The notes under the pieces are model-generated. The model did not search any database, was not told the DNA's origin, and worked only from the letters and a program-made list of their open reading frames with translations. Shown here one piece after another: positions 5,979-61,130 of a stretch of DNA of 64,000 nucleotides (positions within the stretch are counted from its first letter, which is position 1; each line of letters opens with the position of its first letter). This stretch comes from Lysinibacillus macroides (GTDB taxonomy: Bacteria; Bacillota; Bacilli; Bacillales_A; Planococcaceae): the NCBI RefSeq assembly GCF_001281525.1, contig NZ_LGCI01000010.1, positions 610,869 to 674,868 on the forward strand, written 5' to 3'. The position numbers were made by a program, and so were the translations under genes.

Positions 5979-6695
5979 TTATCCTGTAAAGCTTGGGTTA
6001 TGTGTTGTGTAGCGGTCTTTATAAAATCGATTTAATGTCTCTGCTATATTGCGAAGTGATGGCAAAATTGCTGCTTCTCCACCTTCGTCACGTAGCTTAC
6101 TATGCAAAAATGCAATTAATTTATACGATTGAGACAATAGACTTGTAAATTCTTGCGTATGTTCCCGCACTTCAAAGCGAATAGCTTTAACCGCTACAGC
6201 CTGTGCCACCTTTTGCTCTCTTGTCTCAAAACAGGGCTCTTGACGTACTTCATCATCGCTCACTCGATATAGTAATCTTAATGTGCTATAGACCTCTCGA
6301 TTATCACGAAAACGTTCCTTCAGCCACTGCAACACAAATTGTAAAAGAATAACTGCATACATAAAGGAAAGGCATTCATCACCACGCGATTTTTTCGCTA
6401 AACGCTGGAAATACTCGGCTTGCGTCACTAGTTCAAATAAAATTAAGCGAATAGGATATAACATGGCGTGACCGCTATTAATATATAAATTTTCTCGATC
6501 TCTGTACATAGCCAGCCAAACATCCTTGACCAATGAAATGGATTTTCTTGTAGAGAGTGCTAATTGACATTGAATAAGCTGATGCTCAATCGTCGGTTGT
6601 AGTAGTCGTTGAAATAAAAGCTCATCTTCCTCACTCACAAGTAATAGTGGTTTTTCTAAATTTGCTATATCTATTTCTATACCGTTTACAAACAT
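5979..6695 (-). CDS. Protein of unknown function, 238 aa
   Basis: I do not recognise a family. The start ATG at 6695 follows GAAGGAGG. The protein begins MFVNGIEIDIANLEKPLLLV and is rich in predicted helix with many charged residues; it has no signal peptide, no clear transmembrane span and no nucleotide-binding motif. The middle (about 80-140) contains two hydrophobic helices (PIRLILFELVTQAEYF, LSFMYAVILLQFVLQWL) that look like buried core helices. It is the last of three minus-strand unknown genes between rarA and tcdA, a gap that is smaller in B. subtilis, so it may be lineage-specific. Confidence 0.7.
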   Translation of the reverse strand: MFVNGIEIDIANLEKPLLLVSEEDELLFQRLLQPTIEHQLIQCQLALSTRKSISLVKDVWLAMYRDRENLYINSGHAMLYPIRLILFELVTQAEYFQRLAKKSRGDECLSFMYAVILLQFVLQWLKERFRDNREVYSTLRLLYRVSDDEVRQEPCFETREQKVAQAVAVKAIRFEVREHTQEFTSLLSQSYKLIAFLHSKLRDEGGEAAILPSLRNIAETLNRFYKDRYTTHNPSFTG

Positions 6696-6796
6696 TGTCT
6701 AGCCTCCTTCACACTTAATCCGATAAATTACCTGTTTTTAACTATAATTCGACAAAAAATCATAAATACCTTTTGGCTTTTTACTTTTTACACCAT

Positions 6797-6890
6797 AAAA
6801 AGAATCTATGAAGCTTCAGCAATCAAATTTTTCAACAGCAAAACGTGTAGAAAAATAAAATTTAATCTCAGAAGTCACATAGATTCTTAT
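6797..6890. repeat. Imperfect inverted repeat in the 229-bp gap between two unknown genes
   Basis: The arms AGAATCTATG (6801-6810) and CATAGATTCT (6878-6887) are perfect and extend with mismatches into flanking AAGCTTC/GAAGTCA. The inside is A/T rich and has no gene. It could be a small degenerate mobile repeat or an RNA structure between the genes at 5979 and 6925; nothing else is seen in this gap. Confidence 0.4.
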
Positions 6891-6924
6891 AGGCTACAGG
6901 CAAAAATAAATCGTCCTTTATTGG

Positions 6925-7446
6925 TTAAGCAAATGTTAATTCATGGTCAACAAACACTTTAAGCTGAAGAAGACATTGCTTCGTATCACCCTTTTGGGCA
7001 AGAACTTCATGGCGTATTGTTGCCACTTTTTCTTCATCCTCCATTACTTCCTTCAAAAGAGCAAAAATAGTTGTTACTAACTGGTCATTCTCTTCCTGAT
7101 CAATATTTGGGAGCGAATAGGCTGCTACTTTTAATAACTGCTCCACTTGTTCAGGCGTTTTTTGCAAGGCATTGGATGAATAATACATTGATATAGCTAA
7201 AAAATAGCATAGCTTTGCATAGCAGTCGATAAACAAATGCCAATACGTATTCGCACTTGGTAACTCTCCTGCCTGCTTCTCAACATAGTCCTTATAAAAA
7301 GTTGTCGCTTGTTTATATAAAGGATTTAATTCTCTCATCGCTTTTGGATAATTATTAGAGGTATCCAAATAATCAAATACAATGGTATTCATTTTCTCTT
7401 GAAGTTTCACAATATCTAAATGGTCACGAATTACTTGAATTTCCAT
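6925..7446 (-). CDS. Protein of unknown function, 173 aa
   Basis: No family is recognised. The ATG at 7446 has GGGAGAGTGG six bases upstream. The protein (MEIQVIRDHLDIVKLQEKMN at the start) is acidic and almost wholly helical in appearance, with aromatic-rich stretches such as NTYWHLFIDCYAKLCYFLA and a C-terminal leucine-rich segment KQCLLQLKVFVDHELTFA. No membrane anchor or catalytic motif is clear. It stands 229 bases upstream of the unknown gene at 5979 and about 210 bases downstream of the one at 7657, all in the same direction. Confidence 0.7.
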   Translation of the reverse strand: MEIQVIRDHLDIVKLQEKMNTIVFDYLDTSNNYPKAMRELNPLYKQATTFYKDYVEKQAGELPSANTYWHLFIDCYAKLCYFLAISMYYSSNALQKTPEQVEQLLKVAAYSLPNIDQEENDQLVTTIFALLKEVMEDEEKVATIRHEVLAQKGDTKQCLLQLKVFVDHELTFA

Positions 7447-11100: not shown

Positions 11101-11307
11101 TAGGACGAATCCCGATTGTGCCGTAATGCCAAGAAACATTTGTTTTGAACCCGCAATTTGCAGGTGGGTGCCCGCTTTATCGTCTTAAACGTCCCCATGC
11201 ACTGGGGCATGTTTGCCACCATAAAATATAGGCTCCCAATTTAATAATGTTCGGTCAAAACTGTGAAGTAGTGTTAGCAGTTAGACAAACACATCAGGAT
11301 TCGTATT
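11101..11307 (-). ncRNA. ssrS: 6S RNA (bsrB-like position)
   Basis: 6S RNA mimics an open promoter and sequesters the housekeeping RNA polymerase. The minus-strand RNA starts near 11307 and its ends pair perfectly: ACGAATCC (11297-11304) with GGATTCGT (11105-11112), forming the long closing stem. Internally the GC-rich pairs TGCCCC/GGGGAC and GCGGGC/GCCCGC-like arms form the upper rod. A promoter fits: TTGAAT (11337-11342), 17-bp spacer, TATGAT (11314-11319). B. subtilis bsrB lies in the same aspS-yrvM gap. No ORF here has coding support. The identification rests on position, length and folding, not on a covariance search. Confidence 0.85.
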
Positions 11308-14705: not shown

Positions 14706-14988
14706 AAAAAGCTCTCGTCCCTTGCACTATTGCAAGGGACGAGAGCTAATAAGCTTCCGCGGTTCCACCCTAGTTGACACAAATAATAGCATGTGTCCTC
14801 CTCGTAATCGGATAACGGCCGATTCCGTTTTTTCCTACTAAGCCGTACTTTTCAGAAAAAAGCCTCTCAAGTGTTGTTCGCATTATACATTTTTGTAGGA
14901 AAGATTGCAGCCTAAGTCTTTCCCTCTCTTTTCCAATAGAGGTATACGCTACTTGCTTGGTCATAAGCGATTAATCATTTTTCGATTA
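14704..14988 (-). promoter_or_regulatory. T-box leader (probably tRNA-His) controlling hisS-aspS
   Basis: On the minus strand the T-box motif AGGGTGGAACCGCGGAAG (14755-14771 region) is followed by a strong terminator: GCTCTCGTCCCTTGCA pairs with TGCAAGGGACGAGAGC and then T6 (14704-14746). Uncharged tRNA would pair with the TGGA bulge to favour antitermination. A possible specifier CAC (His, 14871-14873) lies in AACAACACTTGAGAG, by analogy with the trp leader; this assignment is tentative. Confidence 0.92.
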
Positions 14989-26604: not shown

Positions 26605-29600
26605 CTAGTTCTGTAATCGTTCATCAAACCATTGTTTTAATTCAATATAAGGGGCATACACTAATTTTTGCTCCATTTCAATCTGCTGTGAACGTTGTTT
26701 GTAAGACGGTGCCTCTGTTAGTGCTTGTTTTGGAGCATTTACGTTGACAGTCGTCAGTCCATTCTCCATTTTAACAAAACCAAGCTCAAAAAACACCTTT
26801 GTCATAAACTTTAATATTTCTAATGGCCATCCCGTATGCTTGGCTAAATCTGCAATATGCATGTCGAGTGGAAACGCTGGTCGATTTTTCAAAAATTTAT
26901 AATACCACGCAAATTGCTCTCTTGTTGGCAAGCCATTAAAATATTGTGAGTCAGGCATATAAAAATGCGCATAAATACGTGAGGGTGCTGTTTGCTGTAG
27001 AATTGCTTCTAGTCTTTCAATGTTTTGTGGTAAATCTAACAGCACAATATAATCACATTGATCAATATTGGATAAGGTCGAATCAACTACCATAATGGAA
27101 ACACCAATTAATGACTGATAATAGGTCATCGTTTCAGGGCGAAAGGCAATAAACAGTGCCTCGTCCTTCGGTATCGTATGGAGCCAACGAGCGGTTTGAC
27201 GAATACCTCGAATATCAAATAGTTGCCATTCTGTTGTTTGTACATCCTCAATCATAAATTGAGCCTTTTTACGTCCCTGCCATTCATTAATTTGTAAATC
27301 ACCTATAAAGGACACTTTAATACCGTATGTTAGCTCATCCTGTAAATGCCCTTTATTAAAGCCCACACTATCTAATTTTTCATAGCCATCGGTTAATTCC
27401 ATTTTTATATGATTTTCAGCCGCTCCAATTTTACGCATGGATGCGATTTCTACATTCTCTAGCACATAAACAGGCTTTGGAAAATCCGTACCAAACGGCC
27501 CAAGTGTGGCGATTTCCTCAATGGCTTCTGCTGAAATTTCATCGAGACGTAGCGGAATATCAATATGGACAACAGGTGTTAATTGCTCCTCTGTTAAACA
27601 AGCCCTTGCTTGAGCATCCAAACGTGTGCGTAATTCGTCCACATGCTCCATTGGCAGGGTCATACCTGCTGCCATAGGATGTCCACCGAAATGCGGTAAA
27701 ATATCTCGATTTTTCGCAAGCTCATTATATAAATGAAAGCCCGCAATACTACGAGCAGAGCCCTTTGCTGTCCCTTTGTCCGCATCAAGTGATAACACAA
27801 TGGTTGGGCGATAATATAGCTCCACTAAACGCGAGGCAACAATACCGACAACCCCTGCATTCCAGCCTTCACCTGCCACAACAAGCACTAAGGAATCGCC
27901 AATTTTTTTATCTGCTTCAATCAGTGCAATGGCCTCATCTGTAATGCTTTTGACAAGATTTTTGCGCTCTATATTGCAGGCATTGAGCTGCTTGGCTAAG
28001 GCCGCTGCTTTTGTACTATCCTCAGCCATTAATAGCTCGACGCCCGGAGCCGCTTCCCCAAGTCGCCCTACAGCATTTAAGCGTGGACCAAAATAAAAGC
28101 CAATCGTTTCTTCAGTAATTTTCGCCTGCTCTGTGCTCGCTACATCACACAGCGCCTGTACCCAAGGACTAAGTGAACGCTGCATTTCCTGTATACCGCG
28201 CTTCACAAGATAACGATTTTCATCCACTAACGGTACTAAATCCGCTACCGTCCCAATCGCCACAAACTCCAGCAAATGTATTGGCAGCTCCCCATAAAGA
28301 GCGTGTGCCAACTTAAAGGCTACCCCAACGCCCGCCAGCTCACCAAATGGATAATGTCCCTCTGGTAAACGGGGATGTAAAATAATATCTGCTGGCGGTA
28401 GCTCGTCACCTGGCTCATGGTGGTCTGTCACAATGACATCCATGCCAAGCTCCTTCGCCACTCGAATAGGCTCAATGCCCGATATTCCATTATCCACTGT
28501 AATGATTAACTGTACACCCTCTTCAGAGGCCTCACGAAATAGTGCTTCGTGCGGACCATAACCATGGATAAAACGATTCGGGATCTTAAACGTTACATCC
28601 GCTCCAAGGTCCAGCAAAACATTGAGTATAACGGTTGTGCTTGTGATTCCATATAGTGATAGGTAAGCCTTTGAAGTCATCTCCAGCTTTTCCCCCACTT
28701 CACACCGTGCGTGAGATTTTCACCTCACACGGCGTTCCATCGAAAACATTCAAAACTTTTGTAATCTCATAACTTAACAAAATTCACCTATGATTTGTTA
28801 TGCATTTATAAGTATTTGAAAGTTCCGACTAGAGCCTATCCCTCCACCGCTTATTATCACGGTTTCAACGGTACTGTGACTCCACTCTCACGGAAAGTTA
28901 ATCAGTTTTAATAGGTTGCCCTTTTATATACTGAACTGCTTCATAGGTAGGTTAATACCTCCACATCCTCCGCTTTCCACGTTCCGATTCCTTTATCCTT
29001 ACATATATCCGTAGGTTTCTCCTATAGTCCTGTATGCTGGAACTTGCCTGTAACAAGCTATGGGCTTTCATAACGCCAGATTCTTACTCCCCCACACATA
29101 CGATGGCACTGCCACCCATTGCATTTCTACAATGTCTACGTCTAGACCTGTACATTCAGAGATTTGTCAGTGCTTATGCAGCACATTCTAACCATAGATA
29201 TTTTTTGGACTCCCGGCATATAGGATACACCGTCTACCGCTAGACAGCTTTCGTGATTTACAATTATCGTAAACTTACGGTATCTCTCTGCCGACTTCAC
29301 CGAGCTTCATACTTTGCTATTTAACCTTAGTCAAAGCATGTCGGAGTATCAGAGTAGGCGTTTCAGGGCGTTACTCCGTCATTCCACCTATCAAGAAATC
29401 AGTTCTCCTAGAAAATCTAGTATCTAAGCTTTTCACTTAGAAACGTGTCGCACCCGCATCATAATCGCCGTAAATCAAGATTTTCTCACCCTTCTCTAAT
29501 GCTTGCTCAATTCGTGCGACAGCTTCAGTCATGCCGGGCATTAGAAATGGATCATGGATACTTGCTTCAGTCATATTTAATAGACTCTCTGCATCTGCTG

Positions 29601-29727
29601 GTGTTTCACAGCCTCTTGCCGCTAAAATTTTCGCTGCAATCGCAGAAAGTTGTAAGTCATTTTGCAATGCCTGGACAAGTGTGGCATCTGGACGCTCCAC
29701 CTGCCATCTTTTTTTCGATAAAATCAT
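26605..29727 (-). CDS. recJ: Single-strand DNA exonuclease RecJ, interrupted by a group II intron (exons 29727-29454 and 28652-26605)
   Basis: RecJ degrades single-stranded DNA 5'-to-3' in recombination and repair. Exon 1 (start ATG 29727 after AGGAAGTGAG) ends in LIYGDYDA plus the first base of the next codon; exon 2 supplies the other two bases and continues [20 protein letters not shown]. The junction therefore rebuilds DHH motif I (DYDADG), whose aspartates bind metal. Later motifs are [29 protein letters not shown] and, in the DHHA1 domain, [15 protein letters not shown]. The spliced frame is 2,322 nt, 773 residues, a normal RecJ length, with no stop. Without splicing, exon 1 reads into a TAA shortly after the junction. 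Confidence 0.92.
28653..29453 (-). mobile_element. ORF-less group II intron inside recJ, 801 nt
   Basis: The intron begins GTGCGAC (29453 leftwards; consensus GUGYG) and ends CACTAT (28653; consensus AY). Domain V lies at about 28702-28737: CGCCGTGTGAG and CTCACGCACGG pair around GTGAAAAT, the usual 34-nt catalytic hairpin. Domain VI follows (28653-28697) with a candidate branch adenosine 7-8 nt from the 3' end. The loop sequence CTGCAT (29176-29181), in a hairpin closed by GTGCT/AGCAC, pairs with the last six bases of exon 1 (ATGCGG, one G-U), which fits an EBS1-IBS1 contact. No reverse transcriptase or maturase frame is present, so splicing and mobility would need help in trans. Confidence 0.9.
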
Positions 29728-35963: not shown

Positions 35964-36323
35964 AAAAAAAGCCCCTGCAAAAAGGACTGTTCCTAATTGC
36001 AGAGGACGATTATGACCGCGTTGCCACCTCATATTAGAGCATAATGCTCTCACCTTTATGCCTGCTCTATAATGGCTTTTAGCCGTCTAAAGCAAGCTTC
36101 CCTATAACGTGGGAAATCCCGTTCGCTTTTTAGGAGCGACTCTCATAAGTCCATTCACATAAGCTACAAATCAGTTCACACCAACCACTGACTCTCTAAA
36201 TTGCACACTTACGTTACTATTCTTATTCAACAATTTTTTAGCTATTCTCATCTAAACTCAGCTCATCTGTTCTAAGGCTGACCTCGCTCCCGAGGCCTTC
36301 TCCCTTGACCGAACAAAAAGTTA
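35964..36323 (-). promoter_or_regulatory. Tryptophan T-box leader of the trp operon
   Basis: On the minus strand the T-box motif AGGTGGCAACGCGGTC (36014-36029) precedes a terminator: CCTCTGCAA pairs with TTGCAGGGG and is followed by T7 (35964-36005). Stem I contains GTGAATGGACTTATGAGAG, where UGG followed by A is the tryptophan specifier. Uncharged tRNA-Trp would switch the leader to antitermination. About 230 bases lie between the terminator and trpE; they contain one copy of a motif like the 38-bp repeat (35918-35945) and no gene. Confidence 0.93.
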
Positions 36324-61022: not shown

Positions 61023-61130
61023 ACTGCACCTCCTCATAGACTCAGACTCGCCTGTTTATAAAGGTGATCCCTAAAGATACTTAAACCTTTCCAGTGCGGT
61101 TGTAGTAGCACAGGTGCTACAAACAATAAC
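61023..61130 (-). promoter_or_regulatory. L21 leader (autoregulatory mRNA element)
   Basis: Between the promoter and rplU the RNA contains TTTGTAGCACC..., a GTAGCACAGGTGCTAC-type hairpin (about 61101-61120) and AGGCGAGTCTGAGTCTATGA just before the SD, as in the Firmicutes L21 leader. It is thought to bind L21 and adjust ribosomal protein synthesis. Recognised by position and sequence style, not by a covariance model. Confidence 0.6.

Follow-up and report, generated by a model that had tools for sequence, protein, structure and literature searches.

The stretch of Lysinibacillus macroides DNA analysed here (the window, 64 000 nucleotides) carries on its minus strand a recJ gene interrupted by an ORF-less group II intron. 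Exon 1 (29727..29454) is 274 nt long and comprises codons 1–91 and the first base of codon 92; the intron (29453..28653) has 801 nt, from GTGCGAC to CACTAT; exon 2 (28652..26605) extends from the last two bases of codon 92 to the stop codon. Because exon 1 is 274 nt long, codon 92, which specifies the last aspartate of DYDAD, is split as G/AT. We take this residue, in motif I of RecJ, to be a metal ligand. The joined coding sequence has 2322 nt and a single frame of 773 amino acids containing GDYDADGITST. The joined protein matches the RecJ equivalog model TIGR00644 with 584.8 bits (cut-off 396.9), its residues 1–771 align with the solved RecJ 8y30, and Pfam recognizes DHH, DHHA1 and RecJ_OB plus C-terminal domains in exon 2 (26605–28650). 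An earlier note on this DNA had placed an 801-nt minus-strand group II intron here and proposed that its removal rebuilds DYDADGITST in a 773-residue RecJ; coordinates and open joined frame were both reproduced. In the unspliced gene, exon 1 reads on for five codons into the intron and then meets a stop, giving a 96-aa product, and the exon 2 ORF begins within domains V/VI.

The intron satisfies the group II boundary rule GUGYG...AY, its own ends being GTGCG...AT. In an Rfam covariance search, its domain I core (29407–29202, minus strand) matches RF02004, group-II-D1D4-5, with 184.6 bits (E 3.5e-42), and its domains V and VI (28737–28653, minus strand), recognized already in the first reading, match RF00029 with 58.3 bits (gathering 40). 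Domains II and III match no named model. The overall group II fold is supported by the domain I match and by a consensus fold over 21 cores (see below). The EBS1 hexamer CTGCAT (29176..29181, minus strand) lies in a hairpin loop and forms all six pairs, one of them G–U, with IBS1, the last six bases of exon 1 (ATGCGG, 29454..29459, minus strand), as had been suggested. The adenosine at 28660, which lies 8 nt before the intron's 3' end, is the presumed branch point. What remains of domain IV measures 82 nt between markers (28744..28825, minus strand) and includes the ORF deletion junction at 28788/28787, intron positions 666/667, as defined against congeners. No stop-free frame of at least 100 codons is found in the intron, in agreement with the earlier statement that it holds no maturase.

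A group I intron or an intein was ruled out by the Rfam group II matches and by the absence of a protein frame across the insert. An assembly artefact, an objection raised at the outset, is very unlikely because the insert differs from its nearest relative (95.6–97.8% identity, not 100%) and shows a deletion junction of its own; inserts with the same ends at the same nucleotide in four other Lysinibacillus genomes and in other genera speak against both an artefact and a chance insertion. A phage or plasmid source was also considered: none of the 11 matching phage records covers 80% of the query, and one of the 375 matching plasmid records does.

Among 32 Lysinibacillus genomes, recJ is split at the same point in five and whole in 27. 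No second recJ was found in any of the 32, the window's genome included; two of them encode a distant DHH relative (23% and 27% identical). Between intron positions 666 and 667 the four congener introns carry about 0.94 to 1.97 kb that is absent from the window copy. A scan of named genomes for DYDA or DYDV codons followed by GTGCGAC gave 45 stretches, 30 without a RecJ match and 15 with one: four from Sporosarcina, three from Kurthia, three from Bacillus-named isolates and one each from Caryophanon, Metalysinibacillus, Lysinibacillus, Pisciglobus and a Firmicutes MAG. Within the family, 20 of 261 genomes have the recJ pattern and G071, with DYDT, adds one. In total 22 recJ introns were delimited, or 23 with that of G071, the window included; Metalysinibacillus, 522_BSPC and the Firmicutes MAG, whose introns extend past the fetched DNA, are omitted from the counts. 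All 23 begin with GTGCGAC, end with CTATC(A/G)CTAT and are inserted at the identical nucleotide. Joining the exons gives an open RecJ frame for every one of the 22 introns (that of Caryophanon ends with the contig) and for G071 over 428 codons.

When the EBS1 hexamer is picked as the best-pairing one in its hairpin, EBS1 and IBS1 form six of six pairs in two of the 22 recJ introns, five in 13 and four in seven; the last group comprises three reduced, three intact and one disrupted intron, those of G239 and G166 among them. There is one compensated change, in Caryophanon (ACGCGG with CTGCGT). Position −6 of IBS1 otherwise shows no covariation with EBS1 in these 22 introns, and for this reason EBS1–IBS1 covariation is given little weight. 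The introns of the window and of G025 are about 96% identical, yet the dS of recJ between the two genomes is 0.58; this suggests that one or both introns were probably acquired by transfer and that the two ORF losses may be recent. The recJ intron of G166 (L152) has about 280 nt extra near its 5' end and a domain IV of 16 nt between markers.

Twelve of the 23 recJ introns contain an intact RT/maturase-sized ORF (defined as a stop-free frame of at least 600 codons; observed range 637–640 codons), the G021 intron is full-length with a disrupted ORF, and ten, the window's among them, are deleted or eroded. The reduced introns are 801 (window), 771, 1657, 664, 1034, 1223, 1033, 993, 1741 and 778 nt long. 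Domain IV, with its 82 nt in the window, spans 2039–2049 nt in the 12 full-length relatives for which it was determined. The ten reduced introns have ten distinct domain IV lengths, from 9 to 1022 nt between markers, and the deletions therefore ended differently. The window copy has kept the CATAAC/GTTATG stem of domain IV and has lost the maturase ORF together with a hairpin, GATTC...GAATC, that is present in all 12 full-length introns; four of the ten reduced introns keep this hairpin and six have lost it. We infer that it is D4a, the usual landing site of the maturase. On the ribozyme tree of 22 introns, the reduced state takes seven changes, three of them forced by well-supported branches, counts in which gain and loss are indistinguishable; four of the 19 inner branches are well supported, and the reduced label is no more clustered than when shuffled. 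G071 was omitted from the trees, and G022, in which the frame was not found, from the recJ tree.

The IEP of the G008 recJ intron, the one IEP scanned, scores 343.9 bits with TIGR04416 (cut-off 300), which identifies it as a group II RT/maturase. Near its C terminus there is a weak match to the IscB family (19 bits) and what reads as a putative HNH-like motif. In G021 the IEPs are interrupted in recJ, polC and addA, and the joined polC frame (L173) stops 78 codons past the junction. This genome is doubtful because the polC frame also stops and IEPs are broken in three genes; its interruptions may be due to sequencing error.

With a probability that we put at about 0.7, the recJ intron, having lost the ORF of domain IV, acts as a ribozyme that splices with no cognate maturase. 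A mobile, maturase-encoding group II intron would have entered recJ by homing to the conserved sequence of motif I, and the whole domain IV ORF and the D4a-like hairpin would then have been lost. In the recJ mRNA, the bulged domain VI adenosine would attack the 5' splice site while EBS1–IBS1 pairing holds exon 1, and the exons would be ligated; the two transesterifications would excise the 801-nt ribozyme, rebuild the Asp92 codon and allow RecJ to be made, with general host RNA-binding proteins or helicases as helpers at most. The intron would no longer be able to move alone, and would persist without its ORF because only exact excision would spare recJ. The intron, its site, the exon frame, the conserved fold, purifying selection, the ORF loss and the failure to find a related maturase gene are observations; splicing in vivo, maturase independence and the order of events we infer.

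The window's genome contains a second ORF-less intron, L174 (G000:C1:453000-464000, about 6494–7414; 921 nt), which interrupts polC at PDIDL/NFSGEYQ and is also of the RF02004 class. It is conceivable, but in our judgement unlikely, that splicing of the recJ and polC introns requires a maturase supplied in trans. The genome encodes three RVT_1 proteins, L043, L044 and L045. The only clear group II maturase is L043 (G000:C8, about 971.4–972.7 kb), which scores 422.3 bits with TIGR04416, matches GIIM and aligns nearly full-length with the GsI-IIC RT and the 7uim maturase. Against the group II maturase model L044 reaches 197.9 bits, short of the 300-bit cut-off, and it matches UG17 about as well as the general RT model; L045 is nearest to RTs of the UG30/Drt4 type. 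The candidates for a helper in trans are thus the IIC-like L043 and the RT L044. That a TIGR04416/GIIM gene exists at all, 46% identical to the G008 recJ maturase over residues 42–265, counts in favour of such help, as does the remark in a review that bacterial ORF-less introns are nearly always accompanied by related IEPs, possibly acting in trans (PMC4424553). The host intron of L043, however, belongs to RF02001/RF01998 (D1D4-3/1) and not to RF02004 (D1D4-5), the class of the recJ and polC introns, and the D4a-like hairpin is deleted from the window intron. No close relative of the G008 recJ maturase was found in the window's genome, where that query retrieved just L043 and L044; the related RT-bearing intron for which the earlier note had hoped in the same genome was not found.

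The hosts of reduced recJ introns as a group also speak against help in trans. In five of the ten (K. senegalensis, Pisciglobus, the Caryophanon MAG, G089 and G239) RVT_1 was undetected, by one search tool on assemblies, two of them with a completeness figure that is missing or below full; completeness is 99% for K. senegalensis, 90% for the Caryophanon MAG and 100% for G089 and G239, the last a single contig. The sole RVT_1 protein of G098 (L241) is a retron-type RT-protease and that of G166 (L242) a Drt2-type antiviral RT. Other RVT_1 proteins are present in the remaining three hosts, the window's genome, K. huakuii and G025. RVT_1 and family searches together thus left seven of the ten hosts without a detected group II maturase. 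A missing GIIM match is no proof that a maturase is absent, because the G008 recJ maturase itself gives none. Beside an intact recJ intron, G038 (Bacillus massiliglaciei) has at least 50 RVT_1 matches; among the matches listed, most lie in 431-aa frames with equal scores, an expanded RT family.

The same intron clan was sought in 261 genomes with the intron 5' end alone as pattern, which carries no exon information. The search found 72 copies in 44 genomes, against one for the reversed-pattern control. Conserved motifs of RecJ, PolC, PcrA, AddA and RadC, which are presumably catalytic, hold 69 of them: 21 in recJ (DYDA/D), 21 in polC (PDIDL/N), nine in pcrA (DEYQD/TN), eight in addA (DEYQD/TN or VN) and ten in radC (HNH/PSG), L219 being one of the latter. 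Two copies lie elsewhere, in a hydrolase gene and in a leucine-rich-repeat gene, and one (G244:C9) was not fetched. Gene names were assigned by NCBIfam for one exon 1 each of pcrA, addA and radC and for both polC exons of the window's genome, and from the residues flanking the site for the remaining copies. The 64 delimited copies (23 in recJ, of which three come from outside the family, 20 in polC, nine in pcrA, eight in addA and four in radC) leave aside the polC copy of G227 and six of the ten radC copies. An intact ORF is present in 28, six are full-length without one and 30 are reduced, making 36 without an intact ORF.

The joined polC frame is open over 132 downstream codons in 19 of 20 copies, G021 being the exception. 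The joined pcrA and addA frames are open over 299 codons except in L161, L168, L209 and L220, in which a second insertion, beginning GTGCGCCC, follows about 30 codons after the first intron. This insertion, probably another group II lineage, interrupts addA or pcrA at a helicase motif, near GDVKQ or GDSDQSI. The radC frame of L225 and L226, once joined, is broken a second time, at LLDH with GTGCG..., which suggests another intron in this small gene.

K. huakuii (G062) has three ORF-less introns of 893 nt, in addA, a hydrolase gene and pcrA (L209, L210 and L211), that are 98–99% identical (877–886 of 893 positions). They look like the product of recent mobilization in trans, and ORF loss need therefore not end mobility where another RT exists. 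G052, a 100% complete genome, carries an ORF-less polC intron of 847 nt and no detected RVT_1, a further point against an obligatory helper in trans; the other nine genomes with reduced polC introns have RVT_1 matches. The hosts without a detected group II maturase accordingly number eight, seven with a recJ intron and one with a polC intron. PolC is essential in Bacillus, and cells with introns of this clan seem to need RNA self-excision. On the wider proposal, that a clan in Planococcaceae and neighbouring taxa homes into conserved motifs and repeatedly sheds its maturase, leaving resident self-sufficient ribozymes on which essential genes of the polC type would depend, we find the balance even. 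Selection may even favour maturase loss, because re-attack of the intron RNP on spliced mRNA could then end, as we deduce from PMC6003770.

The distribution over genes bears on a further alternative, in which splicing would be conditional and the intron a switch on the RecJ level, responding to temperature, Mg2+ or stress. A group II intron can reduce expression of its host gene (PMC6003770), but introns of one clan occupy polC, pcrA, addA and radC without obvious common regulation, and 27 of the 32 Lysinibacillus genomes manage without a recJ intron; we regard a switch as improbable.

The interrupted recJ remains under purifying selection. Its dN/dS lies between 0.033 and 0.103 in pairs of genomes with an interrupted gene, against 0.037–0.067 in three intron-free pairs. 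For the window and G025, neither with an intact maturase ORF, it is 0.070 at dS 0.58; it is 0.045 for G239 and G238, 0.037 for G089 and G098, 0.084 for K. senegalensis and K. massiliensis, whose dS of 1.8 approaches saturation, and 0.103 for K. huakuii and K. massiliensis. The comparison of Caryophanon with the window was left out on account of saturated dS.

The predicted ribozyme fold is conserved as well, including in the genomes without a detected group II maturase (seven of the ten reduced hosts). Over 21 aligned cores (G166, with its long insertion near the 5' end, was omitted), the consensus has 213 pairs; 98.3% of cells are paired, against 36.5–40.8% with slid partners, and two-sided changes occur in 83 of the 213 pairs, against 17–23. 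This structure is alignment-derived, and the compensatory changes may have arisen before the ORF was lost. A leave-one-out test on 13 of the 21 cores, in which each structure was predicted from the remaining sequences, found 93.7% of pairs kept in K. senegalensis (28 two-sided changes, 12 broken pairs) and 86.6% in Pisciglobus (39 two-sided changes, 27 broken pairs), against 38–41% in slid controls; the other eleven cores keep 97.7–99.5%, the window's 99.5%. K. senegalensis and Pisciglobus have the most diverged cores, and neither genome has an RVT_1 match.

The earlier note had left a choice between a cell that depends on splicing and one that lives without RecJ; dN/dS, the single RecJ and the conserved ribozyme fold favour splicing. 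That the intron no longer splices and recJ is dead is highly improbable: recJ is dispensable in many bacteria, and both the truncated 96-aa product and the exon 2 ORF starting in domains V/VI are readable from unspliced RNA, but selection on the gene is at intron-free levels, 22 of 22 joined frames are open, the fold is conserved and a related intron is in the same state in polC.

Self-splicing of the recJ intron without its maturase, the reading preferred here, would be unusual against what the literature reports. According to a review, group II introns of bacteria are for the most part found outside housekeeping genes, those lacking an ORF are uncommon, and non-mobile derivatives are seemingly short-lived in bacteria (PMC4424553); in vivo, bacterial group II introns usually require a maturase (PMC3919590). 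Introns in essential genes are mentioned in PMC8919778, citing Waldern et al. 2020. Housekeeping cases exist: recA of Geobacillus kaustophilus harbours an active group II intron (Chee and Takami 2005, cited in PMC3522654 and PMC4424553). This intron also interrupts a chromosomal recombination/repair gene of Bacillales, but a different one.

Mobile introns of the Ll.LtrB/LtrA type share with the window intron the GUGYG...AY ribozyme ends and the EBS/IBS pairing. They encode an RT/maturase, as does the same-site relative in G008 (TIGR04416), whereas the window intron has no IEP and lies in a conserved codon of a chromosomal repair gene instead of a mobile element. The Clostridium tetani intron C.te.I1 is likewise ORF-less and splices in vivo with no genomic IEP (PMC3919590, PMC4424553); it lies in a surface-layer gene, with alternative splicing and a shifted 5' site (PMC3919590), whereas the window intron has standard boundaries, one expected product and a clan in DNA-metabolism genes. 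In the 2015 review, C.te.I1 is the sole known bacterial ORF-less intron without a genomic IEP (PMC4424553), and the C. tetani study considers that other such introns were likely overlooked (PMC3919590). The window's genome, with L043, is not such a case; in seven of the ten reduced-recJ hosts and in G052 no IEP was detected.

Inteins and group I introns are found in DNA polymerases, helicases and ribonucleotide reductases, at conserved motifs. The window intron shares their ecology, that of self-splicing mobile elements lodged in codons for active-site residues of enzymes of DNA metabolism, and differs in being a group II ribozyme of retrohoming ancestry with no protein splicing. Organellar ORF-less group II introns resemble it in being splicing-only, in housekeeping genes and deprived of their IEP (PMC4424553); the window intron, unlike them, is on a bacterial chromosome and has no known dedicated splicing factors. 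Whether the clan as a whole behaves like inteins or organellar introns, as part of the homing-then-maturase-loss reading, we would leave at a toss-up.

Group II introns as such, their ORF-less forms and occasional examples in housekeeping genes are already known. A clan that occupies conserved motifs in five genes of DNA metabolism and has repeatedly lost its maturase appears to be new: no published recJ, polC, pcrA, addA or radC introns of this type were found in the literature searched, and an earlier description is possible. These introns would provide natural cases, several in named strains, of cells that rely on a ribozyme splicing autonomously, the stage that has been proposed to link mobile introns with the splicing-only introns of organelles.

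Rfam also recognizes other RNAs in the window: two T-box leaders, at 35999-36239 and 14732-14973 (minus strand), 6S RNA at 11105-11303 (minus strand) and an L21 leader at 61034-61111 (minus strand).
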